Source: Rhizobium leguminosarum
GTDB lineage: Bacteria > Pseudomonadota > Alphaproteobacteria > Rhizobiales > Rhizobiaceae
Direction of reading: 5' to 3'
NCBI RefSeq assembly: GCF_001652265.1
Contig: NZ_LWBS01000439.1
Coordinates: forward strand, 62,001 to 126,000
DNA length: 64,000 bases
The notes under the pieces are model-generated. The model did not search any database, was not told where the DNA came from, and saw nothing but the letters and a program-made list of their open reading frames with translations. Shown piece after piece: positions 3,003 to 21,357 of this stretch. The position numbers were made by a program, and so were the translations under genes. Position 1 is the stretch's first letter; every line of letters starts with the position of its first letter.

Positions 3003-4259
3003 ATGATGATTACCCTGACTTATCGTATCGAAACGCCCGGCAGCGTCGAGGCGATGGCGGAAAAGATCGCGAGCGACCAGTCGACCGGCACTTTCGTGCC
3101 CGTTCCCGGTGAAACCGAAGAGCTGAAGTCGCGTGTCGCCGCCCGCGTGCTGGCGATCCGCCCGCTCGAAGATGTGCGTCATCCGACCTGGCCCGAGGTC
3201 GCTCCCGGCACGCTGCTTCGTCGTGCCGATGTCGATATCGCCTTTCCACTGGACGCGATCGGCACCGACCTTTCGGCAGTGATGACCATTGCGATCGGCG
3301 GCGTCTACTCCATCAAGGGCATGACTGGCATCCGCATCGTCGATATGACGCTGCCCGAAGGCTTCAAAAGCGCGCATCCCGGGCCGCAGTTCGGCATCCA
3401 TGGAAGCCGCCGCCTCACCGGCGTCGAAGGCCGGCCCATCATCGGAACGATCGTCAAGCCGGCGCTTGGCCTCAGACCGCACGAAACGGCTGAACTCGTC
3501 GGCGAGCTGATCTCATCCGGCGTCGACTTCATCAAGGATGACGAAAAACTGATGAGCCCGGCCTATTCGCCACTCAAGGACCGCGTTGCGGCGATCATGC
3601 CGCGCATTCTCGATCACGAGCAGAAGACCGGTAAGAAGGTCATGTATGCCTTCGGCATCTCGCATGCCGATCCCGACGAGATGATGCGCAACCACGACAT
3701 CGTCGCCAAGGCCGGCGGCAACTGCGCCGTCGTCAACATCAACTCAATTGGCTTCGGCGGCATGAGCTTTCTGCGCAAGCGCTCCAATCTGGTGCTGCAC
3801 GCGCATCGAAATGGTTGGGACGTGCTGACACGTGACCCGGGCGCCGGCATGGATTTCAAGGTGTACCAGCAATTCTGGCGGCTGCTCGGGGTCGATCAGT
3901 TTCAGATCAACGGCATCAGGGTCAAGTATTGGGAGCCGGACGACAGTTTCGTCTCGTCCTTCAAGGCCGTCAGCACGCCGCTGTTTAATGCCTCCGATTG
4001 CCCGCTTCCGGTTGCCGGTTCGGGCCAGTGGGGAGGACAGGCGCCGGAGACCTATCAGCGGACCGGACGCACCGTCGATCTTCTCTATCTCTGCGGCGGC
4101 GGCATCGTCAGCCACCCCGGCGGCCCGGCGGCCGGCGTTCGGGCCGTGCAGCAGGCCTGGCAGGCAGCCGTCGCAGACATTCCGCTGGACGTCTATGCAA
4201 AAGATCATCCGGAGCTTGCCGCTTCGATTGCAAAATTCAGCGACGGCAAGGGCGCGTGA
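3003..4259 (+). CDS. oiaX: RuBisCO-like protein acting on 3-oxo-isoapionate 4-phosphate
   Basis: This is a form-IV RuBisCO-like protein of 418 residues. The TIM-barrel motifs are present: GTIVKPALGL with K152 (RuBisCO Lys175) and DFIKDDEK with K178, D180 and E181 (the carbamylated Lys201 and metal ligands Asp203/Glu204). The loop-6 region reads AGSGQWGGQ and lacks the Lys334 equivalent, so it is not a carboxylating RuBisCO. In D-apiose clusters such proteins are either OiaX (hydrolysis to 3-phosphoglycerate and glycolate) or OiaC (decarboxylation to L-erythrulose 1-phosphate). The window has no lerI/derI isomerase genes, which favours OiaX, but this is inference. The kinase gene follows with almost no gap. 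ATG codons at 3003 and 3006 are both possible, with AGGAG somewhat distant. Confidence 0.85.
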   Translation: MMITLTYRIETPGSVEAMAEKIASDQSTGTFVPVPGETEELKSRVAARVLAIRPLEDVRHPTWPEVAPGTLLRRADVDIAFPLDAIGTDLSAVMTIAIGGVYSIKGMTGIRIVDMTLPEGFKSAHPGPQFGIHGSRRLTGVEGRPIIGTIVKPALGLRPHETAELVGELISSGVDFIKDDEKLMSPAYSPLKDRVAAIMPRILDHEQKTGKKVMYAFGISHADPDEMMRNHDIVAKAGGNCAVVNINSIGFGGMSFLRKRSNLVLHAHRNGWDVLTRDPGAGMDFKVYQQFWRLLGVDQFQINGIRVKYWEPDDSFVSSFKAVSTPLFNASDCPLPVAGSGQWGGQAPETYQRTGRTVDLLYLCGGGIVSHPGGPAAGVRAVQQAWQAAVADIPLDVYAKDHPELAASIAKFSDGKGA

Positions 4260-4264
4260 CCGCG

Positions 4265-5660: not shown

Positions 5661-5686
5661 ATTGACTCATCATACCAGTATATGAT
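5661..5686. promoter_or_regulatory. operator copy 2 of the apiose regulon, over a promoter
   Basis: CTCATCATACCAG (5666-5678) matches copies 1 and 3, and here it is embedded in a perfect 6-bp inverted repeat, ATCATA-N6-TATGAT (5669-5686). A TTGACT -35-like hexamer starts at 5662. The element lies 32-52 nt before apnO, so that gene has its own regulated promoter in addition to any readthrough from the kinase gene. Confidence 0.7.
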
Positions 5687-5717: not shown

Positions 5718-6545
5718 ATGACTAAGATTGCCCTCTTCGGCGCAGGCGGGAAAATGGGATACCGGCTCGCCAAAAACCTCAAAGGCTCACGATTCCAGGT
5801 GCGCCACGTCGAGGTGAGCGACGCAGGCAAGGCCCGTTTGAAGAATGATCTCGGTGTCGATTGTGTGCCCGTCGATGTCGGGCTCGACGGCGCCGACGTG
5901 GTGATCCTTGCCGTGCCGGACACGGCGATCGGCAAAGTCGCGGCAGGCATCGTCGACAAGCTCGCATCAGGCACCATGGTGATCGCGCTGGACGCTGCGG
6001 CTCCTTTTGCAGGCCACCTACCGAAGCGCGATGATCTTACCTACTTCGTCACCCATCCCTGCCATCCGCCGATCTTCAACGACGAGACGGACATGCAGGC
6101 GAAAAAGGACCACTTCGGCGGCCTCTTCGCCAAGCAGCATATCGTCTCCGCACTGATGCAGGGTCCCGAAAGCGCCTACGCGCTCGGCGAAGAAATCGCC
6201 AAGCTGATCTGGGCCCCGGTCATGCGCTCGCACAGGGTCACGGTCGACCAGCTTGCCATGCTCGAACCGGGTTTGTCGGAAACCGTGTGCGCATCGCTGC
6301 TCGTCGTCATGCGGCAGGCCATGGACGAATGCGTGGCACGCGGCGTGCCCGAACAGGCGGCACGCGACTTTCTGCTTGGCCATATGAATGTACTCGGCGC
6401 GGTGATCTTCAAGGAAGTCGACGGCGTGTTTTCGGATGCCTGCAACAAGGCGATCGAGTTCGGCATCCCCGCGCTGATGCGCGACGACTGGAAAAAAGTA
6501 TTCGAACCGCAGGAGATCGCCGAAAGCATCCGGCGCATTACCTGA
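5718..6545 (+). CDS. apnO: D-apionate oxidoisomerase
   Basis: An N-terminal Rossmann domain begins MTKIALFGAGGKMGYRLAKN (GxGGxMG dinucleotide loop) and is followed by VVILAVPDTAIGKVA. The helical C-terminal half resembles the phosphogluconate-dehydrogenase C-terminal domain. In characterised apiose pathways the family member ApnO oxidises D-apionate and migrates a hydroxymethyl group, giving 3-oxo-isoapionate. The 275-residue length and the context (kinase and RuBisCO-like gene upstream, lactonase and dehydrogenase downstream) fit that role. AGGTGAGGAAAAC gives a good ribosome site for ATG 5718; the upstream extension to 5616 would read through the operator and has no ribosome site. Without the neighbours I would call it only an NAD(P)-binding oxidoreductase. 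Confidence 0.87.
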   Translation: MTKIALFGAGGKMGYRLAKNLKGSRFQVRHVEVSDAGKARLKNDLGVDCVPVDVGLDGADVVILAVPDTAIGKVAAGIVDKLASGTMVIALDAAAPFAGHLPKRDDLTYFVTHPCHPPIFNDETDMQAKKDHFGGLFAKQHIVSALMQGPESAYALGEEIAKLIWAPVMRSHRVTVDQLAMLEPGLSETVCASLLVVMRQAMDECVARGVPEQAARDFLLGHMNVLGAVIFKEVDGVFSDACNKAIEFGIPALMRDDWKKVFEPQEIAESIRRIT

Positions 6546-6601: not shown

Positions 6602-7588
<987 letters not shown>

Positions 7589-7661: not shown

Positions 7662-8306
7662 ATGTTGAGAATGAAGGGCGCCCTGCTCGCTGCCGTCGTG
7701 GCGGCAGCCTTGCCCGGTTGCAAGATCATCAAGACGCCGACGGCTGAGGAAAAGGCTGCGGCAGCGGCCAAGACAGCCTTCGACCCGAATGCAAAGGTCG
7801 AGGCAATCTGGCAGTCCGAGGCAGTGCCCTATTTCGAGAAGCGCGCCGGCGACCTCAAGGACGTCATGCAATTGGCCGCCTCCAGTCCCGACGCTGCAGG
7901 CGAGAAATACGGCAATCCCCACAAGCAGAGCAGCTCGCCCTGGACCTATGCGGTGAAGGTCACCGGCAAGGTTGTCGCGGCCGATACGGCGTCGCGCGCG
8001 GCAACGCTCGATGTCGACGCCGATGGCGACGGAAAGGCTGATGCCAAGGTGCAGATCGGGCCGGCGCTGCGCGGCACGGCACTGCGCGACACGCTGGAGT
8101 TCGTCAATTTCAACGAGTTCAAGAACCAGATCGAGTGGGCGCAATTCGGCAAAGCGTTCAACGAGAAGGCCAATACGGCTTTTCTCTCCGCCATCCCGCG
8201 CGAAGGTCTCACCGGCAAGACGGTGACCGCAATCGGCGCCTTTCCGCTGCCGAAGAGCGGCGAGCTGCCGCTCATAACGCCTTCGGAACTGAAGGTGGGG
8301 CCATGA
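7662..8306 (+). CDS. DUF2291 family lipoprotein
   Basis: The 214-residue protein starts with a lipoprotein signal (LLAAVVAAALPGCKI; lipobox LPGC, Cys about residue 20) and then has the DUF2291 pattern: a helical lead, WTYAVKVTGKVVAADTASRA, DADGDGKADAKVQIGP and VNFNEFKNQIEWAQFGKAF. Members are regularly encoded beside RbsABC-type sugar importers; their biochemical role is not established. It should be tethered to the inner or outer membrane facing the periplasm. The stop overlaps the ATPase start as ATGA, so translation is coupled. An accessory role in apiose uptake is inferred from position only. Confidence 0.85.
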   Translation: MLRMKGALLAAVVAAALPGCKIIKTPTAEEKAAAAAKTAFDPNAKVEAIWQSEAVPYFEKRAGDLKDVMQLAASSPDAAGEKYGNPHKQSSSPWTYAVKVTGKVVAADTASRAATLDVDADGDGKADAKVQIGPALRGTALRDTLEFVNFNEFKNQIEWAQFGKAFNEKANTAFLSAIPREGLTGKTVTAIGAFPLPKSGELPLITPSELKVGP

Positions 8307-9853
8307 CGGCGGCAGAGGCACAAAAGGACGACATTATCCTGCGCCTCGAAGACGTGTCGAAGGTCTATTCGGGTATCGTCGCTGTCAAGCGCGCCAATCT
8401 TGAGCTACGGCGCGGCGCAGTGAACGTCCTTGTCGGCGAAAACGGTGCAGGCAAGTCGACGCTGATGAAGATCATCGCCGGCGTCGAGCGTCCGACGCTC
8501 GGCCGCATCATTCTGGACGGCAAGCCCGTCTCCTTCGACAGCCCGGCGCACGCGCAGGCGAATGGCATCGGCATGATCTTCCAGGAGCTCAATCTGTTCG
8601 CCAACATGTCGGTCGCCGAGAACATCTTCGCCAGGCGCGAAATCACCCGCGGCCTTTTCGGCATCGACCATAAGGCGCAGGTGCAAAAGGCCAATGCGTT
8701 TCTAAAGCGTCTGGATGCAGGGATCGAGGCGGATACGATGGTCGAGGATTTGCCGATCGGCCAGCAGCAGCTCGTCGAGATCGCCAAGGCGATGTCGTTG
8801 AATGCCCGTATCCTGATCATGGATGAGCCGACGTCGGCTCTTTCGGCGGCCGAAGTCGAGATCCTGTTCAAGGTGATTGGAGAACTGAAGGCCCAAGGTG
8901 TGGCAATCGTCTATATCTCGCACCGGCTCGAAGAGCTGATGCGGATCGGCGACTACATCACCGTGCTTCGTGACGGTCAGGTCACCGGTGAAGCAATGGT
9001 CCGCGACATCGACACGCGCTGGATCGTGCGCTCCATGATCGGCTCGGACGCCAAGGATTTTGCAAAATCCGTAGACCACGTCGTCGGAGCCGAGATGTTT
9101 CGCGCCGAAAATATCAGCCTGCCGCGGCCGACAGGCGGTCTTTCGGTCAACGATGTCTCTCTGTCGGTCAAGGCAGGCGAAATCCTCGGCATCTACGGCC
9201 TGATGGGTGCTGGGCGCAGCGAATTCTTCGAATGCGTGATCGGTCGGCACACGCACTCGACCGGCAAGATCTTCATCGACGGCAAGCAGGTTCGCGCCCG
9301 CGACACCACGCGGCGCATCCGCCGCGGCCTTGCGCTCATTCCTGAAGACCGGCAGCGGGAAGGTCTGGTCCAGGTGCTCTCGATCGCATCCAATCTGACT
9401 TTGGCGAGCCTTGGCCGCTTCACCCGGCTCTTTCATATCGACAGGAGTGCGGAGAAGAATGCCATTCGCGATGCAATCCGCGATCTTTCGATCAAGGCGC
9501 CGAACCCGGATTTCGAGGTGACCTCGATGTCCGGCGGCAATCAGCAGAAGGTCGTCATCGGTAAGGCGTTGATGACCAATCCGAAAGTGCTTCTGATGGA
9601 CGAGCCGAGCCGCGGCATCGATGTCGGCGCCAAGGCCGACGTGTTCCGAACCATGCGGCGGCTGGCGGCAAATGGGCTCGCCATTTTGTTTTCAACTTCC
9701 GACCTCGAAGAGGTCATGGCGCTTTCCGATCGCATCGCGGTCTTGAGCAACGGCCAGTTGGTCGCGGTCTTCGACCGGAACGAGGCCACGGAAGAAGCCA
9801 TCATCACGGCTTCGGCCAAGGGACACGGACATCAAGGGAAACTCGCGTCATGA
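8303..9853 (+). CDS. sugar ABC importer ATPase, RbsA-like, two nucleotide-binding domains
   Basis: Two fused ABC domains in 516 residues are typical of RbsA/XylG/MglA. Domain 1 has a Walker A at VGENGAGKSTLMK and a Walker B ending ILIMDEPTSALS. Domain 2 has the usual degenerate Walker A (YGLMGAGRSEFFE), a signature SMSGGNQQKVVIGKALM and LLMDEPSRGIDVG. It powers the D-apiose-type importer from the cytoplasmic face. The start at 8303 overlaps the preceding stop (ATGA), and its own stop overlaps the permease start in the same way. The longer open frame back to 8135 is a shadow of the lipoprotein gene. Confidence 0.92.
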   Translation: MTAAEAQKDDIILRLEDVSKVYSGIVAVKRANLELRRGAVNVLVGENGAGKSTLMKIIAGVERPTLGRIILDGKPVSFDSPAHAQANGIGMIFQELNLFANMSVAENIFARREITRGLFGIDHKAQVQKANAFLKRLDAGIEADTMVEDLPIGQQQLVEIAKAMSLNARILIMDEPTSALSAAEVEILFKVIGELKAQGVAIVYISHRLEELMRIGDYITVLRDGQVTGEAMVRDIDTRWIVRSMIGSDAKDFAKSVDHVVGAEMFRAENISLPRPTGGLSVNDVSLSVKAGEILGIYGLMGAGRSEFFECVIGRHTHSTGKIFIDGKQVRARDTTRRIRRGLALIPEDRQREGLVQVLSIASNLTLASLGRFTRLFHIDRSAEKNAIRDAIRDLSIKAPNPDFEVTSMSGGNQQKVVIGKALMTNPKVLLMDEPSRGIDVGAKADVFRTMRRLAANGLAILFSTSDLEEVMALSDRIAVLSNGQLVAVFDRNEATEEAIITASAKGHGHQGKLAS

Positions 9854-10914
9854 TGGCGGCTACATCAACCACTCTCGCGCCGAAAGGCACCAACGGCTCG
9901 GCGCTTCTGACGCTGATGAAGCTCAGGACGTTCATCGCGTTATTCGCCGTGATCATCTTCTTTGCGATCTTCGCGCCGAACTTCACCTCGACGGCGAACA
10001 TGATCCTGATGTCGAAGCATGTCGCGCTGAACGCCTTCCTGGCAATGGGCATGACCTTCGTCATCATCACTGGCGGCATCGATCTCTCCGTCGGATCGAT
10101 CGTCGGGCTTTGCGGCATGGTCGCCGGCGGCCTGATCCTTTACGGCATCGAATTGCCGATCGGCTACACCATCTTTTTCAACCTTTTCGAGATCGTGCTG
10201 ATCACCTTGTCGATCGGCCTACTCATCGGTCTGATCAACGGCCTGCTGATCACCAAGCTCAACGTCGCGCCCTTCATCGCCACGCTCGGCACGCTCTATA
10301 TAGCCCGCGGTCTGGCCCTGCTGTCGTCGGACGGCCAGACCTTTCCGAACCTTGTCGGCCGGCCTGAATATGCCACGACCGGCTTCGATTTCTTCGGCGC
10401 GGGACGCATTCTCGGTCTGCCGGTATCGATCTGGATTCTGATCGTGCTTGCGCTGCTGGCCGCCTATGTCGCCCGCTCGACGCCGATCGGCCGTCATATC
10501 TTCGCTGTCGGCGGCAATGAGCGGGCCGCGCGCATGTCCGGTATCCGGGTCGATGTCGTGAAGATCTTCGTCTACATGTTCTCCGGACTTTGCGCGGCAA
10601 TCGTCGGCGTCGTCATTTCCTCCGAACTGATGGCAGCCCATCCGGCGACCGGCGAAAGCTTCGAACTCAATGCGATTGCCGCAGCCGTGCTCGGCGGCAC
10701 CTCGATGTCGGGCGGCCGCGGTACAATCGGCGGCACGATCATAGGCGCCTTCGTCATCGGCATCCTCTCCGACGGGTTGGTGATGATGGGCGTCTCCTCC
10801 TTCTGGCAGATGGTCATCAAGGGTCTCGTCATCATCATCGCCGTCGTCGTCGACCAGGCGCAGCGCCGCCTGCAGCAGCGCGTCACCCTCATGCAGATGG
10901 CAAAGGCAGGTTGA
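9850..10914 (+). CDS. sugar ABC importer permease, RbsC-like
   Basis: This 354-residue polytopic membrane protein has 8-10 hydrophobic segments and family motifs: FVIITGGIDLSVGSIVGLCG, LLIGLINGLLITKLNVAPFI, TLGTLYIARGLALL, FAVGGNERAARMSGI and LGGTSMSGGRGTIGGTIIG. A single gene suffices because CUT2 permeases homodimerise. Position after the RbsA-like ATPase, with an ATGA overlap, and 1 nt before apdG shows one operon for transport and the first oxidation step. The substrate is inferred to be D-apiose. Confidence 0.92.
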   Translation: MMAATSTTLAPKGTNGSALLTLMKLRTFIALFAVIIFFAIFAPNFTSTANMILMSKHVALNAFLAMGMTFVIITGGIDLSVGSIVGLCGMVAGGLILYGIELPIGYTIFFNLFEIVLITLSIGLLIGLINGLLITKLNVAPFIATLGTLYIARGLALLSSDGQTFPNLVGRPEYATTGFDFFGAGRILGLPVSIWILIVLALLAAYVARSTPIGRHIFAVGGNERAARMSGIRVDVVKIFVYMFSGLCAAIVGVVISSELMAAHPATGESFELNAIAAAVLGGTSMSGGRGTIGGTIIGAFVIGILSDGLVMMGVSSFWQMVIKGLVIIIAVVVDQAQRRLQQRVTLMQMAKAG

Positions 10915-10915: not shown

Positions 10916-11950
10916 ATGACGGAATTGAAAGGGGCTTTGATCGGTTGCGGTTTCTTTGCGATCAACCAGATGCATGCCTGGAACGACGTTCGGGGTGCCG
11001 GCATCGTCGCGATCTGCGATCGTGATCCAGAGCGGCTGAAGATCGTCGGCGATCAATTCGGCATCGATCGCCGCTATGGCGATGCCGAGGCTTTGTTTGT
11101 CGATGGCGGTTTTGATTTCGTCGACATTGCCACGACAGTCCAGAGCCACCGGCTTCTCGTCGAAATGGCGGCTCGGAACAAAGTGCCGGCTATCTGCCAG
11201 AAGCCGTTCGCCAAGACCTTGTCGGACGCGAAGGCGATGGTCGAGGCGTGTCGCAATGCCGGCGTCCCCCTGATGGTGCACGAGAATTTTCGCTGGCAGA
11301 CGCCCATCCAGGCTGTACGAAGAGCCCTCGATTCAAATGCCATCGGCACGCCCTTCTGGGGCCGTTTCTCTTTCCGTTCGGCTCACGACGTCTTCTCCGA
11401 TCAGCCCTATCTGGCCGAAGGCGAACGTTTCATCATCGAAGACCTCGGCATCCATACGCTCGATATCGCCCGCTATATCCTCGGCGACGTTCGATCGGTC
11501 ACGGCCCGCACCAAGCGGGTCAATCCCCATATCAAGGGTGAGGATGTCGCGACCATTCTGCTCGATCACGAAAACGGCGCCACGTCGGTGGTCGACGTCA
11601 GCTATGCCACCAAGCTCTCGAAGGAGCCGTTCCCCGAGACCTTGATCGAGCTCGACGGCTCGGAGGGCACGATCCGCCTGACCCAGGGTTACGGCCTCGA
11701 AGTCACCAACGCCAGGGGCACCACGATCACGGACGTATCTCCGAAGCTGCTGTCATGGGCCTCACGGCCCTGGCACAACATCCAGGAGAGCGTCTACGCG
11801 ATCCAGCAGCATTGGGTCGATCAGCTGGAGCGCGGCGCGGAACACTCGACGTCAGGGGCCGACAATCTGAAAACCTTTGCGCTCGTCGAGGCCGCCTATG
11901 ACAGTGCGGCCAGGGGACAGACGATCGATGTCGGAGCGATGCTGCGATGA
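10916..11950 (+). CDS. apdG: D-apiose dehydrogenase
   Basis: A Gfo/Idh/MocA oxidoreductase of 344 residues: the N-terminal Rossmann fold (LKGALIGCGFFAINQMHAWN), the catalytic CQKPFAKTLSDAK motif in place of the usual EKP, ENFRWQTPIQ, and a C-terminal sheet domain with EDLGIHTLDIARYILGD. ApdG oxidises D-apiofuranose with NAD to D-apionolactone. The lactonase overlaps its end (ATGA), as expected for consecutive steps. It is 1 nt behind the permease gene in the transport operon. The family is certain; the substrate is assigned from the complete set of apiose genes around it. Confidence 0.88.
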   Translation: MTELKGALIGCGFFAINQMHAWNDVRGAGIVAICDRDPERLKIVGDQFGIDRRYGDAEALFVDGGFDFVDIATTVQSHRLLVEMAARNKVPAICQKPFAKTLSDAKAMVEACRNAGVPLMVHENFRWQTPIQAVRRALDSNAIGTPFWGRFSFRSAHDVFSDQPYLAEGERFIIEDLGIHTLDIARYILGDVRSVTARTKRVNPHIKGEDVATILLDHENGATSVVDVSYATKLSKEPFPETLIELDGSEGTIRLTQGYGLEVTNARGTTITDVSPKLLSWASRPWHNIQESVYAIQQHWVDQLERGAEHSTSGADNLKTFALVEAAYDSAARGQTIDVGAMLR

Positions 11951-13806
11951 CGATCGATGCGTTCCAGCTCTACGGCACCTATCTCGTCGATCCGCCGCCG
12001 GTTCGCCTGAGAGCCGGAAAATTGGAAGCCGATCTCGCCAACGGCAACCTCCGCACCATCCGCTATGATGGAACCGAGGTGCTGCGGGCGATTTCCTATC
12101 TCGTTCGCGACCGGGATTGGGGCACTTACAGCCCTGCAATCGCCGGTCTCCGGATCGAACAGAGTGACGATCGTTTCGAGGTCACCTATCTCGCCCGTTG
12201 CGATGGACCGGATGATACCAAACTCATCATCGACGTTCGCATCGTCGGAAGTCCGGACCGGCTCGACTTCGAGGCCGAAGCCATCGCACCAACCGGCTTC
12301 GAGACCAACCGCTGCGGCTTCTGCATCCTGCATCCGATCGTCGGCGTGGCGGGTTCACCGGCGACGGTCGAGCATGTCGACGGGGAGATCATGGCGACAC
12401 GGTTTCCTGATCTCATTGAGCCCTGGCAGCCGTTCAAGGACATGCGCGCCATCACCCACGAGGTCATGCCTGACGTTCAGGCGGAATGCCGGATGGAGGG
12501 CGACACTTTTGAAATGGAAGATCAAAGGAACTGGTCGGACGCATCCTATAAGACCTATGTCAGACCGCTCGCTCTTCCCTGGCCGTATGAGATTGCCGCC
12601 AATCGGCCCGTTCGGCAGAAAACGTCGCTGGTCATCAGGGACGCACGCGGCTCGACACCGCCTCCTGCTGGGATGTCAGGCGGCGTCATAAAACTTGAAC
12701 TCGGTGCGCGCGCCGGCACCATGCCTGATATCGGTGTGATCATTACGCCCGAGGAGGCCGATGCGACCCTGTCGGCAAATTCCGTCCTGTCGGAGATCGC
12801 TCCCCAGGAACTCCTCTTCCATTTCGACCCCGGCGCCGGGCACGGCATCGACGCGCTCAGGCGATTTGCTGCGATCGCCATAGTCCATCGCGGCCGCTCG
12901 ATGTTGGAGATCGCCCTTCCCTGCAGGTCGTCCCCCTCAAGCGAGGCGGCTGAGATTGCCCGCCAGATGCAGCTGGCGAAATTCCGGCCGGACGCGATCA
13001 TGATCTCGCCTTCCGTCGACCGGCAGTCGACGCCGCCCGGCAGCAAATGGCCGGATTGCCCGCCCCTGGATGAGGTCTATGCTGCAGCCCACGCCACCTT
13101 TCCCGGTATTCGCATCGGCGGCGGCATGCTGAGCTATTTCACCGAGCTCAACCGGAAGCGCGTACCCGATGGACTGCTCGACTTCGTCAGCCACTGCACC
13201 AATCCGATCGTGCACGCGGCCGACGATCTCAGCGTTATGCAGACATTGGAAGCGCTACCCTTCATCACGCGGTCGGTGCGTGCGATCTATGGCGACAAAC
13301 CCTACCGGATAGGTCCATCAACGATCCCGATGCGGCAGAACCCCTATGGCAGCCGCACGATGGACAATCCGGCGGGTGCGCGTATCCCTATGGCCAATCG
13401 CGACCCACGCCACAATGGACGCTTCGCGGAGGCCTTCGCGCTCGGTTACGCGATACGGGTGCTCGATGCCGATCTGGAATTCCTGACGCTCTCGGCCTTA
13501 TCAGGCCCGTTCGGTTTGATCGCCGGTCCGGCCGAACCGACCGAGCAAGGCGGACGGCGCCCGTTGTTCAACACCGTGTACACATTGTCCCGATTGGCTG
13601 GTGCATCCTGGCAGGCATGCGTCTCTTCCTCGCCCTCCGAGGTCCTGTCTTTCGTTGCACGGGATGCCGCGGGCGCCCGGCTTCACGTTGTCAATCTGAC
13701 GGGCGAAGAACGATCGGTCGATTGCGGCGCATGCCGGCCGGCAGATTCGGGCAAAGAGTTGCTGCTCGCGCCATTCGCGGCCGTGGCCCTGCAACTGGCG
13801 GATTGA
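11947..13806 (+). CDS. apnL: D-apionate lactonase
   Basis: A 619-residue cytoplasmic protein without a signal peptide. ApnL lactonases hydrolyse D-apionolactone to D-apionate and are large proteins of this size, unrelated to the common SMP-30 lactonases. The N-terminal half looks beta-rich (DRFEVTYLARCDGPDDTKLI, HVDGEIMATRFPDLIEPWQP); the middle has TIM-barrel-like segments (GGGMLSYFTELNRKR, FVSHCTNPIVHAADDLSVM). It starts inside the apdG stop (ATGA). I recognise it by size, context and general pattern, and cannot point to verified catalytic residues. A glycoside-hydrolase-like fold is an alternative description of the same family. Confidence 0.8.
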   Translation: MTIDAFQLYGTYLVDPPPVRLRAGKLEADLANGNLRTIRYDGTEVLRAISYLVRDRDWGTYSPAIAGLRIEQSDDRFEVTYLARCDGPDDTKLIIDVRIVGSPDRLDFEAEAIAPTGFETNRCGFCILHPIVGVAGSPATVEHVDGEIMATRFPDLIEPWQPFKDMRAITHEVMPDVQAECRMEGDTFEMEDQRNWSDASYKTYVRPLALPWPYEIAANRPVRQKTSLVIRDARGSTPPPAGMSGGVIKLELGARAGTMPDIGVIITPEEADATLSANSVLSEIAPQELLFHFDPGAGHGIDALRRFAAIAIVHRGRSMLEIALPCRSSPSSEAAEIARQMQLAKFRPDAIMISPSVDRQSTPPGSKWPDCPPLDEVYAAAHATFPGIRIGGGMLSYFTELNRKRVPDGLLDFVSHCTNPIVHAADDLSVMQTLEALPFITRSVRAIYGDKPYRIGPSTIPMRQNPYGSRTMDNPAGARIPMANRDPRHNGRFAEAFALGYAIRVLDADLEFLTLSALSGPFGLIAGPAEPTEQGGRRPLFNTVYTLSRLAGASWQACVSSSPSEVLSFVARDAAGARLHVVNLTGEERSVDCGACRPADSGKELLLAPFAAVALQLAD

Positions 13807-13865
13807 CCTCCGGCGCTGCAGCCGCATCTATGCAATCGGAGCTCGCTCTCGGGAGGATCGATGTG

Positions 13866-14867
13866 ATGACGAAGAAGCTTATCAATGCCGGCGCAGATGC
13901 CGTCGATGAAATGCTGCAAGGCGTGCTGGCGGCGCATCCGCGCCACCTGTACGCCGTGGAGAACATGCCCCGTTCGATCATTGCCAGGAACGGGCCACGC
14001 AAAGGCAAGGTCGGACTGGTCATCGGCGGCGGATCCGGACACGAACCGACATTTCTGGGATTTGTCGGCAAGGGACTGGCGGACGCGGCCGCAATCGGCA
14101 ACGTGTTCGCGTCGCCGCCGCCCGACCCGATCATCGCCTGCGCCATGGCAGTCGACGGCGGTGCCGGCGTGCTGTTCATGTATGGCAATTATGCCGGCGA
14201 CGTGATGAACTTCGACATGGCTGCCGAAATGCTCGCGCTTGACGAGATCGAGGTGCGCACCGTCCTCACCACCGATGACGTGGCGTCCGCCCCTGCTGAT
14301 CAGCGGGGCAGGCGACGAGGCGTTGCGGGAAACGTCTTCATCTTCAAGGCCGCCGGCGCGGCATGCGATCTTCTCTACTCTTTCGATGAAGTCGAGCGCG
14401 CTGCCCGCCATGCCAACGCGCGGACCTATACGATGGGTGTGGCGCTCTCGCCGTGTTCGCTGCCTCAGACTTTGAAACCGAACTTCCTGATCGGCGACGA
14501 CGAGATGGAGATCGGCATGGGCATTCATGGCGAGCCCGGCGTGGCGCGTAAGCCGCTGAAACCGGCCGACGCGGTGACCGACGAACTCATGGATAGTATT
14601 CTTCGCGAAATGAATGCCGACCGGGGCGATCGTGTCGCCGTGCTCGTCAATTCGCTGGGCTCGACCCCGATGATGGAACTCTACATCATGATGCGGCGCG
14701 TCAAGTCCAGGCTCGACGACACAGGTCTTATCCTCCATACGTCGCTCGTTGGGAATTATTGCACCTCGCTCGAAATGGCCGGCGCGTCGATCACGGTCAT
14801 GCATCTCGACGACGAGCTTCAGCGATTGATCGACCACCCCTGTGATTGCGCGATGTTTGCGAGGTGA
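13866..14867 (+). CDS. dhaK: dihydroxyacetone kinase subunit DhaK
   Basis: The substrate-binding subunit of a dihydroxyacetone-type kinase, 333 residues. VIGGGSGHEP (residues 52-61) and GMGIHGEPG with His221 are the family signatures; that histidine forms a hemiaminal with the keto sugar. ATP would be supplied with the DhaL protein encoded 3 nt downstream. No PTS-like DhaM is nearby, so the donor could be ATP or an unlinked DhaM. GGGAGG precedes GTG 13863 and ATG 13866. In apiose clusters related kinases phosphorylate L-erythrulose (LerK), an alternative to the OiaK route; with OiaK also present, its substrate here is open. Confidence 0.9.
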   Translation: MTKKLINAGADAVDEMLQGVLAAHPRHLYAVENMPRSIIARNGPRKGKVGLVIGGGSGHEPTFLGFVGKGLADAAAIGNVFASPPPDPIIACAMAVDGGAGVLFMYGNYAGDVMNFDMAAEMLALDEIEVRTVLTTDDVASAPADQRGRRRGVAGNVFIFKAAGAACDLLYSFDEVERAARHANARTYTMGVALSPCSLPQTLKPNFLIGDDEMEIGMGIHGEPGVARKPLKPADAVTDELMDSILREMNADRGDRVAVLVNSLGSTPMMELYIMMRRVKSRLDDTGLILHTSLVGNYCTSLEMAGASITVMHLDDELQRLIDHPCDCAMFAR

Positions 14868-14870: not shown

Positions 14871-15530
14871 ATGACGCTTACGACCGAAGATCTGCAGCGC
14901 TTGTTTGCCGGGATTGCCGAGGATATCGCGGCGGAACGAGATCATCTGTGCGAACTGGACGGTGCCATTGGCGATGGGGATCACGGCCTTGCCATGGATG
15001 CGGGCTGTCAGGCAGCCGCCAAGGCTGTCGGCGCGATCGACGCCGGGGTTGCCCCGACAACCGCATTCAACGTCGCGGCAAAGGCATTCCTGAATGCCGT
15101 CGGTGCTTCATCCGGCCCGCTTTATGCCACGGCCTTCATGCGCGCCGGAGCGGCCGCCAAAGACAAGCAGGTATTGAGCGATGATGATTTCCTGCGCGTC
15201 TTTGCGGCCATGGCACAGGGAATCCAGGAACGCGGAAAGGCCGAACCCGGTGAAAAGACGATGGTTGACGCTTGGAAGCCCGCGGCTGACGCAGCTCTCG
15301 ATGCCTGGCAGTCGGGAAAGCCCCTCCCCCAGTGCTTCGAGGCAGGGGAGCGGGCGGCGCGGGCAGGCTGTGAAGCGACCAGCAACATGACGGCGGCCAA
15401 GGGACGGGCTTCGCGATTGGGAGACCGCGTAATCGGGCACATCGATCCTGGTGCCGCTTCGGCCGTCATCATCGTCGCCGCGATCGCAAAATTTGCGCAG
15501 CGGCAATGGTTATCTCATCATACCAGTTGA
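14871..15530 (+). CDS. dhaL: dihydroxyacetone kinase subunit DhaL
   Basis: The nucleotide-binding subunit partner of DhaK, 219 residues, all helical. LDGAIGDGDHGLAMDAG contains the aspartates that bind Mg-ADP, followed by VGASSGPLYATAFMRAG and GEKTMVDAWKPAADA. Length and motifs match free-standing DhaL rather than the fused single-chain kinases. It ends the first apiose operon. Its last codons (SHHTS) double as the third copy of the regulon operator, so the 3' end of this gene is also a control site for the next operon. Confidence 0.9.
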   Translation: MTLTTEDLQRLFAGIAEDIAAERDHLCELDGAIGDGDHGLAMDAGCQAAAKAVGAIDAGVAPTTAFNVAAKAFLNAVGASSGPLYATAFMRAGAAAKDKQVLSDDDFLRVFAAMAQGIQERGKAEPGEKTMVDAWKPAADAALDAWQSGKPLPQCFEAGERAARAGCEATSNMTAAKGRASRLGDRVIGHIDPGAASAVIIVAAIAKFAQRQWLSHHTS

Positions 15531-15540: not shown

Positions 15541-15582
15541 ACTATCTGTAACAAGGGCCCAGCTTACAAGAGGAGGATGGTA

Positions 15583-16836
15583 ATGCTGACCCTTTCTGCG
15601 AAATTGAAAAGCGCGAGCATCATTGCAATCGCCATGGCGTCGCTATCGGCCACGCCGGTTCTCGCTGAAGACATCACGCTCTGGACCCTCAACTTCGACA
15701 ACAATGCCGCCAATACGGCCCTGAAGAAGGTGGCGACAGACTTCGAAGCTGCAAACCCCGGGACGCATGTCGAGATCGTCCAGCGCGCCGTCGACGAGCA
15801 CAAGACGGCCCTGCGCGTTGCGGCAGGCTCCGACAAGGGACCTGACATTTACTTCAGCTGGGCGGGCCTCGGCCTCGGCGGCGAATATGTGAAGGCCGGC
15901 CTGTCCCTGCCGCTCGACAAGTACTATGCCGAGTATAAGTGGAACGACGAATTGCTGCCCTCGGCAGCGGCTTTTGCCGACCTTTATCCCGGCGGCAAGC
16001 ACGGCGTCCCCTTCACCTTCAAGGGTGAGGCCGTCTATTACAACAAGAAGCTTTTCGAACAGGCCGGCATCAAGGAAGAGCCGAAGACCTACGAGGAATT
16101 CCTTGCCGCAGCCGATAAGCTGAAGGCTGCAGGCATTCCGGCCTTCACCTTCGGCGGCACGGTCAACTGGCACGTCATGCGCCTCATGGACGTCATCCTC
16201 GAAACGAAGTGCGGTGCTGAAAAGCACGATGCGCTGAAGGCGATGACGCTGGACTGGACCAAGGAACCCTGCGCGACCGAATCCTTCGCGGAGTTTGCCA
16301 AGTGGACGAAGGACTATACGCTGCAGCCATTCATGGGCATCGACAACAAACAGTCCTACAGCCTCTTCACCGCCGGTCGTGCGGCGATGATGCTCGAAGG
16401 CGACTGGCTGGTTAGCCAGCTTGACGGCTCCGGTGCCAATCTCGACGACTACGGGATTTTCCCCTTCCCGACCAACACCGACCGGCTCTATGGCTTTGCC
16501 GAGTACAATTACATCAGCACCAAGAGCAAGAGCCCTGACGTAGCGGCGAAGTTTCTCGACTATTTCCTGTCGACGAAGGTGCAGCAGGACCTGCTCGGCC
16601 AGCTGAGCTCGACCTCCGTCAACAAGAACGTACAATATGCCAACCAGAAGCCGCTCGAAGCGGAATGGCTGGGGATCTTCCAGAAATACGGCAAGGTCTA
16701 CATGAACGGCGACCAGGCGTTCCCGCTCGATGTCACGACGGAATATTTCCGCGTTATCAATGATGTCGCTTCCGGTAGCACCGAGCCGGCCGAGGCGGCC
16801 AAGCAGCTGCAGAGCTTCATCGCCAGCAGAACCTGA
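15583..16836 (+). CDS. extracellular sugar-binding protein, family 1 (oligosaccharide type)
   Basis: A 417-residue binding protein with a Sec signal peptide (MLTLSAKLKSASIIAIAMAS, cleavage after PVLA) and a MalE/MsmE-type fold: ITLWTLNFDNNAANTALKKV, PDIYFSWAGLGLGGEYVKAG, GVPFTFKGEAVYYNKKLFEQ and AAMMLEGDWLVSQL. Family-1 proteins usually bind di- and oligosaccharides. It opens a CUT1 operon with two permeases, a cytosolic glycosidase and an MsmK-type ATPase, so an apiose-containing oligosaccharide is the inferred ligand. AGGAGG 6 nt before ATG 15583 decides against the ATG at 15577. Regulation by the apiose operator immediately upstream is likely. Confidence 0.9.
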   Translation: MLTLSAKLKSASIIAIAMASLSATPVLAEDITLWTLNFDNNAANTALKKVATDFEAANPGTHVEIVQRAVDEHKTALRVAAGSDKGPDIYFSWAGLGLGGEYVKAGLSLPLDKYYAEYKWNDELLPSAAAFADLYPGGKHGVPFTFKGEAVYYNKKLFEQAGIKEEPKTYEEFLAAADKLKAAGIPAFTFGGTVNWHVMRLMDVILETKCGAEKHDALKAMTLDWTKEPCATESFAEFAKWTKDYTLQPFMGIDNKQSYSLFTAGRAAMMLEGDWLVSQLDGSGANLDDYGIFPFPTNTDRLYGFAEYNYISTKSKSPDVAAKFLDYFLSTKVQQDLLGQLSSTSVNKNVQYANQKPLEAEWLGIFQKYGKVYMNGDQAFPLDVTTEYFRVINDVASGSTEPAEAAKQLQSFIASRT

Positions 16837-16849
16837 TTCCTCCCGAGGC

Positions 16850-16883
16850 GCCAGCCGATCGACCTCAGGGTCGTGCGGCTGGC
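16850..16883 (+). other. stem-loop between the binding-protein and permease genes
   Basis: An outer stem GCCAGCCG/CGGCTGGC encloses an inner stem CGACC/GGTCG with loop TCAG. It lies 14 nt after the binding-protein stop and before the permease ribosome site. It probably protects the abundant binding-protein message and reduces transporter expression. Confidence 0.6.
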
Positions 16884-16929
16884 ACATTCTTTCGTGAGCT
16901 GGCAGCAAATGCACCGCCAGGAGGAAAAC

Positions 16930-17829
16930 ATGTCACTTCGACAATCGACACATGATCCGCGCGTACAAGCGCTCATCCTGCTCGTGCCGGCCCTGGCAAT
17001 CTATGCCGTCTTCGCCCTTTATCCGATGTTCAACGTCGTGATCCTGAGTTTCCAGAAGTGGAACGGGCTCGATCCCAATCGGCAATTCGTTGGCGTTGCC
17101 AACTATTCGGCGATTTTCACCAAAGATCCGGTCTTCTGGGTGGCCTTCCGCAATACCGTGATCTGGACCGTGATGAGCCTGATCTTCCCCCCGATGGTCG
17201 GACTGCTGCTGGCGCTCAGCCTCAACCAGAAGATATTCGGCCGCAATGGCCTCAGGGCCATCTTCTATCTGCCTGTTATCATCGCGCCGATTGCCGTCGC
17301 CACCATGTGGAAATGGATGTACGATCCCTTCTTCGGCCTTTTCAGCCAGCTGCTCACCTCGTGGGGCATGCAGGGCTGGATCAAGGACTGGCTGGGCAAC
17401 AGGGATATCGCCCTTTATTCGGTTTTCGTCGCCTATCTCTGGCAGACGGTCGGCTTCTCGATGGTCCTGTTCCTGGCGGGCCTGCAGAATGTCTCTCAGA
17501 CGCTCGTGGAAGCAGCGCGCATCGATGGCGCCGGCCGGTGGGCAGTGTTCAAGCATGTGACATTGCCGGCATTGCGCCCGACGATCACGATCGTTCTCGT
17601 TCTTTCCGTCATCTCCTCCTTGAAGGCCTTTGACATCGTCTACGGACTGACCGGCGGGGGGCCGGCGCAGTCCACCCAGATGCTGGCGCTCTGGGCGTTC
17701 ACGCAGGCGATGCAGATCTTCGATTTCGGACGGGGAGCGGCGATTTCGGTCGTCTTGCTGCTGATCACCATGGCCGTCGTCATTCCCTATCTCCAATGGA
17801 CCCAGAAGCACGAGGAGGTTGAATCGTGA
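16930..17829 (+). CDS. sugar ABC importer permease, MalF/UgpA type
   Basis: A 299-residue inner-membrane protein with six main hydrophobic spans and the permease EAA loop (LVEAARIDGAGRWAVFKHVT, then LPALRPTITIV). The opening PRVQALILLVPALAIYAVFA and the phrase ILSFQKWNGLDP are typical of MalF-like CUT1 subunits. AGGAGGAAAAC gives the start at 16930; the frame extends further upstream without a ribosome site. It pairs with the next gene, whose GTG start overlaps its stop. The substrate is inferred to be an apiosyl glycoside. Confidence 0.9.
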   Translation: MSLRQSTHDPRVQALILLVPALAIYAVFALYPMFNVVILSFQKWNGLDPNRQFVGVANYSAIFTKDPVFWVAFRNTVIWTVMSLIFPPMVGLLLALSLNQKIFGRNGLRAIFYLPVIIAPIAVATMWKWMYDPFFGLFSQLLTSWGMQGWIKDWLGNRDIALYSVFVAYLWQTVGFSMVLFLAGLQNVSQTLVEAARIDGAGRWAVFKHVTLPALRPTITIVLVLSVISSLKAFDIVYGLTGGGPAQSTQMLALWAFTQAMQIFDFGRGAAISVVLLLITMAVVIPYLQWTQKHEEVES

Positions 17830-18710
17830 CAGCAGTGCCGACCGATCAGACCGCAGTGCATTTGCAGGTCGAACCATCGTCGATGAAGCGGGATCCCATT
17901 CTGATCGGCCTCTGGATCGCGCTTGTTATCGTGGCGCTCGTCTGGGTCGCGCCATTCGTCTTCATCGTCTTCACCTCGTTGAAGACGCCGGCGGCGGTGA
18001 CGGGCACGGGCGCCTTCGTGCCGCCAACCGACCTCGCTTTCGAAAACTACAGCGCTGCATGGAGCCGCGGCAACTTCGCAAGCTCCTTCTTCAACAGCGT
18101 TATCATAACGGTCATCAAGGTGCCGCTCGGGCTGTTCCTTTCGGCGATGGCCGCCTATGCCCTTGCCAAGATCAAGCTGAAGATCACCAAGGCCCTGCTG
18201 CTGCTCGTCGTGTTCGGCACGATGATCCCCTTCCAGGTGATGCTTGCGCCGCTCTTCACCCTGGTCAATTCACTCGGCCTGATCGACACCTACCCCGGCG
18301 TCATCCTTCCCTACATCGCCTTCGGCGTTCCCTATCAGGTTTTCATCCTGCACGGCTTCTTCAAGAGCATTCCCAAGGAGCTGTCGGAAGCAGCGCTGAT
18401 CGACGGTGCCAGCCACTTCATCATCTTCAGACGGATCTTTCTGCCGGTGTGCCTGCCCGTGCTCGCCGCACTGCTCATCCTCGACTTCGTCTCCACCTGG
18501 AACGAATTCGCCATGGCGCTGGTGCTGCTCCAGGATCAGCACATGTGGACCTTACCGCTCGGCCTGATGTCGTTTCAGGGGCAGTTCTCGAGCAATTACG
18601 GCCAGCTCAATGCGGCCATCGTGATGACCGTCCTGCCGGCAACGATCGTCTATCTCATCTTCCAGCGTTACTTCGTCTCTGGCCTGACCTCCGGCGCCGT
18701 CAAAGGCTAG
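17826..18710 (+). CDS. sugar ABC importer permease, MalG/UgpE type
   Basis: The second CUT1 permease, 294 residues, with the EAA loop ELSEAALIDGASHFIIFRRI and the typical C-terminus SGLTSGAVKG. It starts with GTG at 17826, overlapping the previous stop as GTGA, and AGGAGG lies 8 nt upstream, which makes the internal ATG at 17883 less likely. It forms a heterodimer with the preceding MalF-type subunit. The downstream gene is the cytoplasmic hydrolase, so transport and hydrolysis are encoded together. Confidence 0.9.
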   Translation: MTAVPTDQTAVHLQVEPSSMKRDPILIGLWIALVIVALVWVAPFVFIVFTSLKTPAAVTGTGAFVPPTDLAFENYSAAWSRGNFASSFFNSVIITVIKVPLGLFLSAMAAYALAKIKLKITKALLLLVVFGTMIPFQVMLAPLFTLVNSLGLIDTYPGVILPYIAFGVPYQVFILHGFFKSIPKELSEAALIDGASHFIIFRRIFLPVCLPVLAALLILDFVSTWNEFAMALVLLQDQHMWTLPLGLMSFQGQFSSNYGQLNAAIVMTVLPATIVYLIFQRYFVSGLTSGAVKG

Positions 18711-18743
18711 CGACCACAAAAGCATTCACGAGGAGAATATTCT

Positions 18744-20264
18744 ATGTCTGATGCAACAGTCGAAAAATGGGGCGTGTTCGAGGCCTCCTTTGATGGAGCC
18801 TCCGACGGAAACCCTTATCTCGACGTGGCATTCGATGCCGTGTTCACCCACAAGAGCCGCGAAGTCCGCGTGCCGGGCTTCTATGACGGCAATGGGACCT
18901 ACCGTATCCGCTTCATGCCGGACATCGAAGGTGAATGGTCGTTTCTGACCCGTTCAAAGACTGCCGCACTCGACGGCAAGACCGGCGCGCTGCTTGCGAC
19001 CAAGCCCTCGGCCGGCAATCACGGCCCGGTGCGCGTGCGCAACAAGTTCCACTTCGCCTATGCTGACGGCACCCCTTTCCTGTCCTTCGGGACGACCTGC
19101 TACGCCTGGACGCACCAGCCGCTCGACATGCAGAAGCAGACCCTCGAAACCCTCAAGAAGGCCCGTTTCAACAAGATGCGGATGGGCGTGTTCCCGAAGG
19201 ATTATCCCTATAACGTCAACGAGCCGCTGCATGCCTGCTTCGAACGCGGGGCGGACGGAAAGGGAGACTTCGACCGCCCAAACCCCGCCTCGTTCCAGCA
19301 CTTCGAGAAGCAGGTGGCAGCGCTCTGCCAACTGGGGATCGAAGCGGATATTATCATCTTCCATCCCTACGACCGGTGGGGCTATGCCGATATGTCGGCC
19401 GAACAGGATTTTCGCTATGTCGAATATCTGGCCGCTCGTCTCGCCGCCTACCGGAACGTCTGGTGGTCGCTTGCCAATGAATATGACTTCCTCATCGATA
19501 CGAAGCCGATGGAACAATGGGATCGCTACTTTCACATCCTGGAAGAGAACGACCCCTACCAGCACCTGCGCTCCATCCATAATGGCGACGTGACGGCGAA
19601 TTTCGATCATCGCAAGCCGTGGGTGACGCACACCTGCATTCAAAACCCCGACGTCAAGCGGACCCAGGAATGGCGCGATGCCTACGGCAAGCCTGTCGTC
19701 AACGACGAGCCGGAATATGAGGGCGACATCCTGCAGTCATGGGGCAATCTCAGCGCGCAGGAGCTCGTGCATCGCTTCTGGATCACCATGGCGCGCGGCG
19801 GCTATGCCGGCCATGGCGAAACCTATTCCCATCCGGAGGATCTGATCTGGTGGGCCAAGGGCGGAGAACTGCGCGGCGAAGCGTGGAAGCGCATCGCCTT
19901 CCTCCGGGACCTCCTGGAAGCCGATGTCAAGCACGGCCTCGAGCCGCTCGGCATCATCGGTGAATGGCCCTGGTCCCGCGTGTCTGGCGCACGCGACGGC
20001 GATGGCGATTTTCGCCTTATCTATTTCGGCGAGCATCAGCCGGTGATCTGGTCCACCGGCCTGCCAATCGACGGCGACGATTATGATGTTGATCTCATCG
20101 ACACATGGGAGATGACGATCACGCCGGTCGAGAAGGTGGCGGCGCCCATTCCGCATCCGACACGCCATGGCTCGGTCGTGCGCGGCGGCAAGCCGGACGC
20201 GGCCTTCTGCGTCAAAATTCCCCGTAAGCCATATCAGGCGCTGCGCGTGCGCAGGAAGCGCTAG
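18744..20264 (+). CDS. cytoplasmic apiosidase-like glycoside hydrolase (DUF5060-DUF4038)
   Basis: A 506-residue protein without a signal peptide. An N-terminal beta domain of DUF5060 type (VEKWGVFEASFDG, VPGFYDGNGTYRIRFMPDIE, GEWSFLT) precedes a TIM barrel of the DUF4038/apiosidase-like type: FLSFGTTCYAWTHQ, FNKMRMGVFPKDYPYNVNEP, YRNVWWSLANEYDF with a candidate acid/base Glu after Asn, and VVNDEPEYEGDI with a candidate nucleophile. The C-terminal beta part resembles DUF5605. DUF4038 proteins include the GH140 apiosidases that act on rhamnogalacturonan II. Encoded between oligosaccharide permeases and their ATPase, within an apiose-operator operon, it is inferred to release apiose from imported glycosides inside the cell. 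The substrate is unproven. Confidence 0.8.
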   Translation: MSDATVEKWGVFEASFDGASDGNPYLDVAFDAVFTHKSREVRVPGFYDGNGTYRIRFMPDIEGEWSFLTRSKTAALDGKTGALLATKPSAGNHGPVRVRNKFHFAYADGTPFLSFGTTCYAWTHQPLDMQKQTLETLKKARFNKMRMGVFPKDYPYNVNEPLHACFERGADGKGDFDRPNPASFQHFEKQVAALCQLGIEADIIIFHPYDRWGYADMSAEQDFRYVEYLAARLAAYRNVWWSLANEYDFLIDTKPMEQWDRYFHILEENDPYQHLRSIHNGDVTANFDHRKPWVTHTCIQNPDVKRTQEWRDAYGKPVVNDEPEYEGDILQSWGNLSAQELVHRFWITMARGGYAGHGETYSHPEDLIWWAKGGELRGEAWKRIAFLRDLLEADVKHGLEPLGIIGEWPWSRVSGARDGDGDFRLIYFGEHQPVIWSTGLPIDGDDYDVDLIDTWEMTITPVEKVAAPIPHPTRHGSVVRGGKPDAAFCVKIPRKPYQALRVRRKR

Positions 20265-20286
20265 AAGAGATGGCAAGAGGTACGAA

Positions 20287-21357
20287 ATGTCTGGCTTGAG
20301 CATCAGAAACGTCAAGAAATCCTTCGGCACGGTCGACATCATTCATGGTGTCGACGTCGAGATCGCCGACGGCGAATTTACCATTCTCGTCGGCCCCTCC
20401 GGCTGCGGCAAGTCGACATTGCTGCGCATGATTGCCGGGCTCGAGGATATCACCGCCGGTCAAATCAGCATTGACGGCCGGGTCGTGAATAATCTGCAGC
20501 CGAAGGATCGCGATATCGCGATGGTCTTCCAGAACTATGCGTTGTACCCGCAGATGACGGTCTCCCAGAACATGGGATTTGCGCTCGAGCTCGCCGGGGC
20601 CAAGCGGCCGGAAATCGAACAGAAGGTCGGTGAGGCTGCGGCAATTCTCGGATTGCAGCCGCTTCTCGATCGAAAGCCGGCGCAGCTGTCGGGCGGACAG
20701 CGACAGCGCGTCGCCATGGGCCGCGCCATCGTTCGAGATCCGAAAGTCTTTCTCTTCGACGAGCCGCTCTCCAATCTGGATGCAAAACTGCGCGTGAAGA
20801 TGAGAGCGGAAATCAAGGCTCTGCACCAGCGCCTGAAGACCACGATCGTTTACGTCACCCATGACCAGATCGAAGCCATGACCATGGCTGACAAGATCGT
20901 CGTGCTCCACGGCGGCCGCGTCGAACAGATCGGCAGTCCGCTCGAGCTCTACGACCGACCGCGCAACATCTTTGTCGCAGGTTTCCTCGGTTCTCCCGCG
21001 ATGAACTTTCTCGAGGGAACCCTTGAGGGCGCAGGCAACCCGGCATTGTCGCTGCCGGGTGGGTCACACGTAGCGCTTTCGCGGGCTCCAACCAATTCCG
21101 CCAACAGACCGTTGACGCTGGGTGTTCGTCCCGAAGACATCACCTTCGGTGGCGAAAACGGTGTGGATGCTGTGGTCAAGGTTGTCGAACCGACGGGATC
21201 GGAAACCCATGTCGCCGTGGAACTCGAAGGCAGGGAGCTGACATGGGTCGTTCGCGAACGTGTCGAACTGGTGCCGGAACAGCGGGTGAAGCTTTCTTTC
21301 GAAACGGCCAAGGTCCACTTCTTCGATCGGCAGACGCAGCAGCGTTTGAGCGCCTGA
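20287..21357 (+). CDS. CUT1 sugar ABC importer ATPase, MsmK/UgpC type
   Basis: A single-domain importer ATPase of 356 residues: Walker A VGPSGCGKSTLL, Q-loop VFQNYALYPQMTV, signature LSGGQRQRVAMGRAIVRDP, Walker B FLFDEPLSNLDAKLRV and the H-loop THDQIEAMTMAD, followed by a C-terminal MOP-like regulatory domain with LGVRPEDITFG. It energises the two permeases encoded upstream and is the last gene of the second apiose-linked operon. ATG 20287 has GCAAGAGG upstream; the longer frame from 20167 overlaps the hydrolase gene and is not the start. Confidence 0.92.
   Translation: MSGLSIRNVKKSFGTVDIIHGVDVEIADGEFTILVGPSGCGKSTLLRMIAGLEDITAGQISIDGRVVNNLQPKDRDIAMVFQNYALYPQMTVSQNMGFALELAGAKRPEIEQKVGEAAAILGLQPLLDRKPAQLSGGQRQRVAMGRAIVRDPKVFLFDEPLSNLDAKLRVKMRAEIKALHQRLKTTIVYVTHDQIEAMTMADKIVVLHGGRVEQIGSPLELYDRPRNIFVAGFLGSPAMNFLEGTLEGAGNPALSLPGGSHVALSRAPTNSANRPLTLGVRPEDITFGGENGVDAVVKVVEPTGSETHVAVELEGRELTWVVRERVELVPEQRVKLSFETAKVHFFDRQTQQRLSA

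Follow-up and report, generated by a model that had tools for sequence, protein, structure and literature searches.

What is the substrate of a leaderless hydrolase whose gene stands among those of a carbohydrate importer, behind a set of genes for D-apiose oxidation? The question is raised by positions 15583-21357 of a 64,000-nucleotide stretch of Rhizobium leguminosarum DNA (the whole stretch is hereafter the window), in which the importer genes (15583-18710 and 20287-21357) enclose the hydrolase gene; we call this group the cassette. A sequence-only reading had proposed that apiosyl glycosides are imported intact and that apiose is released inside the cell. That idea has gained from a shared operator-like motif and from linkage to two apiose pathways, and the identification of the enzyme with family GH140 has found no support. 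From sequence comparisons, we consider it probable that the hydrolase is a cytoplasmic apiosidase which, with its own apioside importer, forms the uptake module of an apiose regulon.

The linkage was followed at 80 loci encoding relatives of the hydrolase (the best of the 99 found, labelled L below), mostly from Rhizobium and not independent of one another, annotated with up to 10 kb on each side. Gene presence was called at identity limits of our own setting, and one gene was enough for a locus to count, as with L047 (oiaX only), L094 (one transketolase half) and L110 (an isomerase-like gene and an apiose-type importer). At least one apiose gene stands in the fetched stretch at 58 of the 80 loci, 49 with the oxidative set and nine with an isomerase/kinase/transketolase set. 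At L069 and L071 the latter comprises a TIM-barrel isomerase, a split transketolase, a glycerol-kinase-like FGGY kinase and an apiose-type binding protein (79%); the L071 isomerase scores 426.5 bits against PDB 3ktc, which we take to be the Pectobacterium apiose isomerase. The kinase of this route finds glycerol kinases best by sequence in the PDB, and the kinases of L071 and L111 and the transketolase halves all fall below NCBIfam cut-offs (E up to 1e-30). Since the oxidative and isomerase routes share D-apiose only, a hydrolase tied to both would most simply make D-apiose. On a quick tree of 41 hydrolases, thinned from 92, each linkage label needs seven gains or losses, six of them forced by well-supported branches, and the oxidative and isomerase labels alone need a minimum of three changes. 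Gene arrangement varies as well, with convergent units in Mesorhizobium L090, a cassette between apnO and apdG in Acidobacteriota L109, and other layouts in Planctomycetota L110 and Bradyrhizobium L111.

At L098, L110 and L129, a fucose-isomerase-like protein replaces the TIM-barrel isomerase, and its gene adjoins those of an apiose-type importer or of the kinase and transketolase; the 14-kb stretch of L110 holds no kinase or transketolase. The proteins of L098 and L110 had no NCBIfam match at 1e-30, and that of L098 no PDB sequence match at 0.001. We regard the protein as a candidate apiose isomerase. A cluster in Lactobacillus jensenii, which PMC10711310 describes as holding an alpha-rhamnosidase, transporters, an isomerase (a fucose isomerase in its discussion), DUF4038 and DUF5060, flanked by GH1 and GH28 and read there as amylase-like, resembles the isomerase-type apioside loci of this analysis.

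The cassette and the apiose genes also have a short sequence in common. The motif CTCATnATACCAG is seen in spacers of the window, Paramesorhizobium L047 and Mesorhizobium L090, and its window copies, at 2935, 5666 and 15514, lie 5' of oiaX, apnO and the importer. It was defined by eye on the spacers of L047, L090 and window oiaX, so these three cannot count as independent tests of it, unlike the apnO site and the other loci. The window's own 8.2-Mb assembly (93% complete) contains four exact copies and none of the reversed pattern. Three are the window sites, and the fourth (G000:C272:11608) lies within two open reading frames of L127 (2974-4056, +; 3889-4569, -) and is therefore read as chance. 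With two mismatches allowed, the assembly gave 18 matches and the reversed pattern 12, which leaves little signal in looser matches. Across 86 loci (the 80 genome loci and six plasmid records), 64 copies with at most one mismatch were found, against three in a single mononucleotide shuffle; 53 stand directly 5' of the binding-protein gene, five of apnO and two of oiaX, with four strays (L097, L106, L111 and L115). The -35-like TTGACA follows the site at the window importer and at most other sites, and paired sites within one locus also occur in L047, L090 and L099. The idea of a single regulon, raised in the sequence-only reading, thus finds a shared operator-like site 5' of the oiaX, apnO and importer units.

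A NanR-type regulator, encoded at 2121, probably reads the three sites, to judge from sequence. Escherichia coli NanR binds GGTATA repeats, needing two or more and binding a single one poorly (PMC8012715). The motif contains one TATACC, the reverse of GGTATA, and so matches the E. coli site in part; with a single TATACC, the pairing of regulator and site is something we infer. Cassettes that lack the motif are often accompanied by a divergent ROK-family regulator. Such a gene stands at the cassette in 18 of 82 cassette loci, and the apiose-type motif occurs in none of the 18. Oxidative genes without a ROK gene mark 47 cassette loci, and the site is present at 45 of them; at L065 it takes a two-mismatch form, and at L109 a copy with one mismatch stands 5' of apnO only. 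At L078 and L081 the ROK gene is placed between dhaL and the cassette. In genome G103, the apiose operon, on a separate contig, keeps the site 5' of apnO, and the cassette has a ROK gene instead.

The hydrolase itself carries DUF5060 (6.6e-26), PF13204 (4.5e-20) and a C-terminal DUF5605 (3.4e-15), the last a domain beyond those previously listed. PF13204, earlier named DUF4038, is called Apiosidase in current Pfam, and the hydrolase reaches 72.9 bits against its gathering cut-off of 26.5. The enzyme had been called signal-less, and no signal peptide is apparent by a crude hydrophobicity index, used rather than SignalP (top 11-residue mean within the first 40 residues, 1.13 versus 2.25 and 2.05 for the two binding proteins). 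The argument from GH140 is weak. A profile of 27 hydrolase sequences searched against the PDB at E up to 1 reached 4n0r only and no GH140 structure, phmmer likewise found 4n0r only, and GH140 membership by sequence was rejected. A structure-level match of the hydrolase model to GH140 does exist, the fold is as near to GH5 mannanases, and the best fold match with a stated function is a GH5 mannanase of like size. All 27 sequences keep N245-E246 and E322 unchanged, which points to a likely Glu/Glu catalytic pair, as against the Asp187/Glu284 proposed for BT_1012; according to PMC4032388, 17.3% of PF13204 proteins have Glu. The catalytic places were aligned with those of BT_1012 through the order of strands in the model instead of through single residues, and the model's predicted local distance difference test score (pLDDT) is below 50 at residues 325-334 and 360-364, near E322 and E359 in sequence.

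A fold as near to the GH5 mannanases and a likely Glu/Glu pair, as in GH5, would also suit an enzyme that cuts another bond of an apioside, for instance a diglycosidase that splits glucose from an aglycone to give apiosyl-glucose, with a further enzyme freeing the apiose; the regulon and linkage evidence suits any enzyme of apioside breakdown. We nevertheless regard this as unlikely, because the assembly yielded no PF13204 protein other than the hydrolase, the enzyme has the Pfam domain of apiosidases, and the region from 2121 to 21357 showed no further glycosidase.

More doubtful still is a role for the cassette in the use of some unrelated pentoside or mannoside, with its place in the apiose cluster owed to chance or hitchhiking. 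The mannanase fold match speaks for this, as does the existence, at 8 of the 80 loci, of cassettes that have a ROK regulator of their own and stand alone, without apiose genes in the vicinity, but all eight genomes encode ApnL (seven, 65-72%) or a transketolase half (one, 81%) outside the stretch, a phrase that may mean the same contig some kilobases further. Moreover, the motif is common to the cassette and the apiose genes, and linkage to two kinds of apiose genes changes often on the 41-row hydrolase tree. ApnL is absent from the stretch at 32 loci; of their genomes, 15 encode it elsewhere at 53% identity or more and three at 32-36%. Nine of the 32, none among the 15 and the query's own genome included, have a transketolase half at 63% or more. 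In a set of 199 genomes of the family, a transketolase half at 63% or more occurs in two, ApnL in 47, the hydrolase in nine, and both hydrolase and ApnL in eight. The ninth hydrolase genome, G117, has an isomerase-type set beside its cassette (L129); the transketolase half found in that genome belongs to the common type, at 52%.

Several observations weigh against an apiosidase serving an apiose regulon. Seven of the 80 loci (L096, L108, L114, L115, L116, L118 and L119) lack a clear apiose partner, and their genomes have weaker matches at most (transketolase half 42-56%, ApnL 33-36%), with neither marker for L108 and L115. The hydrolase and ApnL lie within 10 kb of each other in only two of the eight family genomes that have both, and these two belong to the window's genus. 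Distant relatives (44% identity) adjoin other genes, with GH28 and a sialidase-like gene nearby in Streptomyces, and a TonB receptor and MFS transporters in Croceibacterium. The Devosia relatives, L118 and L119 are hydrolase pairs with a different ATP-binding cassette (ABC) transporter and no CUT1 cassette; the ATPase family of that transporter is also found in an L122 transporter annotated as oligopeptide type. Paired paralogues occur at L094, L097, L106, L117, L118 and L119, with identities to the window hydrolase of 44-45% and 63-71% in Devosia, where a split transketolase lies near the pairs, and of 53-55% and 56-58% at L118 and L119. Given these divergent contexts of distant and paired relatives, we would not extend the apiosidase assignment to the DUF5060 family as a whole.

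The importer shows the features of a CUT1 carbohydrate ABC importer: an SBP_bac_1 binding protein, two BPD_transp_1 permeases and a MalK-type ATPase with an OB/TOBE domain. Its ligand could not be taken from homology, as the best PDB match of the binding protein is XylA at 94 bits, which is too distant. The binding protein and both permeases accompany the hydrolase at 72 of the 80 loci, and the binding protein is found in 86 plasmid records and the hydrolase in 91, with nearly equal genus counts (the records were not matched one by one); this co-occurrence and similar plasmid distribution tie the importer to the hydrolase. That tie, together with the CUT2 importer already present, whose binding protein matches PDB 5ibq (presumably a D-apiose complex), makes it very improbable that the CUT1 system is a second importer of free apiose or apionate with the hydrolase a minor scavenger, even with an adjacent operon devoted to free apiose. 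The Leguminosae are among the plant families most often reported with flavonoid apiosides (PMC10589286), and rhamnogalacturonan II, which holds apiose, is present in all plants (PMC8820409, PMC12168206). With a CUT1 importer and a cytoplasmic enzyme, a small sugar (an apiosyl disaccharide, for example) would be a likelier substrate than an intact flavonoid.

In the apioside module that we prefer, the binding protein and CUT1 importer would take up a small apiose-bearing glycoside, and the leaderless hydrolase, as fold and linkage suggest, would split it in the cytoplasm and free D-apiose. ApdG, ApnL, ApnO, OiaK and OiaX, whose genes are present, would then oxidize, rearrange, phosphorylate and decarboxylate the apiose as in the known pathway, and free apiose would enter separately through the CUT2 importer (6647-10914). 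The three units would be controlled through the upstream site that oiaX, apnO and the binding-protein gene share, with the NanR-type regulator as its probable reader. There is a fair chance that the hydrolase group defines a second apiosidase group. More broadly, we lean, with limited confidence, toward the view that the DUF5060-PF13204-DUF5605 proteins in this branch represent a second type of apiosidase, cytoplasmic and distinct from GH140, that uses a Glu/Glu pair. With the importer they would form a portable apioside module, joined several times to two apiose pathways while swapping its control site (apiose-regulon operator, own ROK repressor, or others), and in that case the fucose-isomerase-like protein of L098, L110 and L129 would act as an apiose isomerase.

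The genes and sites are collected in Table 1. On re-analysis, the open reading frames, domains and gene order first described around 15583-21357 were all borne out. Candidates for the apiose oxidation set said to precede the importer are also there, with OiaX and ApnL above NCBIfam cut-offs and OiaK below; for the ApnO-like and ApdG-like proteins no NCBIfam model matched above its cut-off, and both were assigned by Pfam, the latter also by position. The start of the NanR-type gene was set by the 705-bp gene of R. johnstonii (the open reading frame itself reaches 2939), and the OiaK-like coordinates are open-reading-frame limits with a provisional start, the pRL12 gene having 1338 bp. Plasmid pRL12 of R. 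johnstonii 3841 is annotated with an identical gene order, from RL_RS34900 down to RL_RS34820, and the hydrolase is 98.0% identical to an R. beringeri copy and 97.6% to RL_RS34825 of pRL12. DhaK and DhaL, between the apiose set and the importer, may supply the pathway with an erythrulose or dihydroxyacetone kinase. A DhaK-annotated gene is also found near the cassette in Martelella (L121).

Table 1. Genes and operator-like sites of the window, with features of related loci (prefixed L)
Feature	Position or locus	Strand	Support
NanR/GntR-FCD type regulator, candidate controller of three units	2121..2825	-	NF003011 364 bits, cut-off 260; annotated NanR on pRL12
Operator-like site 1, CTCATTATACCAG, 5' of oiaX	2935..2947	+	
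OiaX, RuBisCO-like 3-oxo-isoapionate-4-phosphate decarboxylase	3003..4259	+	NF042437 782 bits, cut-off 700
OiaK-like kinase	3998..5653	+	SBD_N and NBD_C; NF042436 473 bits, under cut-off 700
Operator-like site 2, CTCATCATACCAG, 5' of apnO	5666..5678	+	
ApnO-like D-apionate oxidoisomerase	5718..6545	+	PGDH_C 9.2e-72
Binding protein of ribose-type (CUT2) importer, probably for free D-apiose	6647..7588	+	606 bits to PDB 5ibq, 604 to 4ry0
DUF2291 lipoprotein of CUT2 importer	7662..8306	+	
CUT2 importer ATPase	8303..9853	+	
CUT2 importer permease	9850..10914	+	
ApdG-like GFO/IDH/MocA dehydrogenase	10916..11950	+	Pfam and position
ApnL, D-apionate lactonase	11947..13806	+	NF049900 1044 bits, cut-off 750
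DhaK, ketose kinase subunit	13863..14867	+	
DhaL, ketose kinase subunit	14871..15530	+	TIGR02365 187 bits, cut-off 138.3
Operator-like site 3, CTCATCATACCAG, within dhaL 3' end, 5' of importer/hydrolase cassette	15514..15526	+	TTGACA (-35-like) directly after
Family-1 binding protein of CUT1 importer, leader-like N-terminus	15583..16836	+	SBP_bac_1 3.3e-32
CUT1 permease 1	16930..17829	+	BPD_transp_1
CUT1 permease 2	17826..18710	+	BPD_transp_1
Leaderless DUF5060-PF13204-DUF5605 hydrolase; candidate catalytic E246, E322	18744..20264	+	
UgpC/MalK-type ATPase of CUT1 importer	20287..21357	+	PRK11650 505 bits, cut-off 432
Fucose_iso_C protein beside cassette	L098:4053-5576	-	Pfam
Fucose_iso_C protein beside cassette	L110:4640-6088	+	Pfam
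Fucose-isomerase-like protein beside cassette	L129 near 7470		
ROK loci	L070, L072, L074, L078, L081, L092, L101, L102, L104		
ROK loci, continued	L113, L121, L125, L126, L128, L129, L131, L132, L133		

Elsewhere in the window, on the minus strand, positions 43168-48233 encode an ABC ATPase, a xylose-isomerase-like TIM barrel, a ROK protein and two permeases, which likely form a further operon for sugar uptake. Also on the minus strand, 52847-60341 encodes a GH32 protein, a MalK-type ATPase, two permeases and a family-1 binding protein. The proteins scanned in that operon included none that resembled an apiose gene product. A literature search of titles and abstract openings returned, among the matches listed, no intracellular apiosidase with an importer and apiose genes. 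If our reading is correct, it offers a testable substrate for one branch of a large hydrolase family without an assigned function (at least 7,999 relatives by sequence), and legume-associated bacteria would use apiosides without releasing sugar to competitors. The exchange of regulators would be a clear case of a catabolic module being rewired.

Several known systems resemble parts of this locus. The GH32 operon has the same design (binding protein, two permeases, ATPase and hydrolase) with another hydrolase family. Compared with the GH140 apiosidases (BT_1012, PDB 5msy and 3kzs; a mangrove enzyme, 8t9w), the window hydrolase has an extra N-terminal DUF5060, DUF5605 where BT_1012 has PF12904, and a likely first catalytic residue that is Glu, the counterpart in BT_1012 probably being Asp, with no sequence-profile match between them. 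The one PDB relative by sequence, BVU_0362 of Bacteroides vulgatus (4n0r), is titled a putative glycoside hydrolase, with no stated function. ManDH5, the Dictyoglomus GH5 beta-mannanase (9gpe, 9gmj and others), shares 16% identity, and its entries bind manno-oligosaccharides. Known apiose pathways start from free apiose imported by CUT2 importers; Carter and colleagues reportedly described in 2018 D-apiose pathways through ApdG, ApnL, ApnO, OiaK and OiaX, and also a route of apiose isomerase, apulose kinase and apulose-4-phosphate transketolase. Like these, the window has candidates for all genes of the oxidative route, upstream of the cassette, and some relatives carry the isomerase route. 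The difference lies in an added CUT1 importer and intracellular hydrolase, preceded by the same operator-like site, and the new element is this probable apioside uptake and cleavage module, joined to a known kind of apiose pathway.
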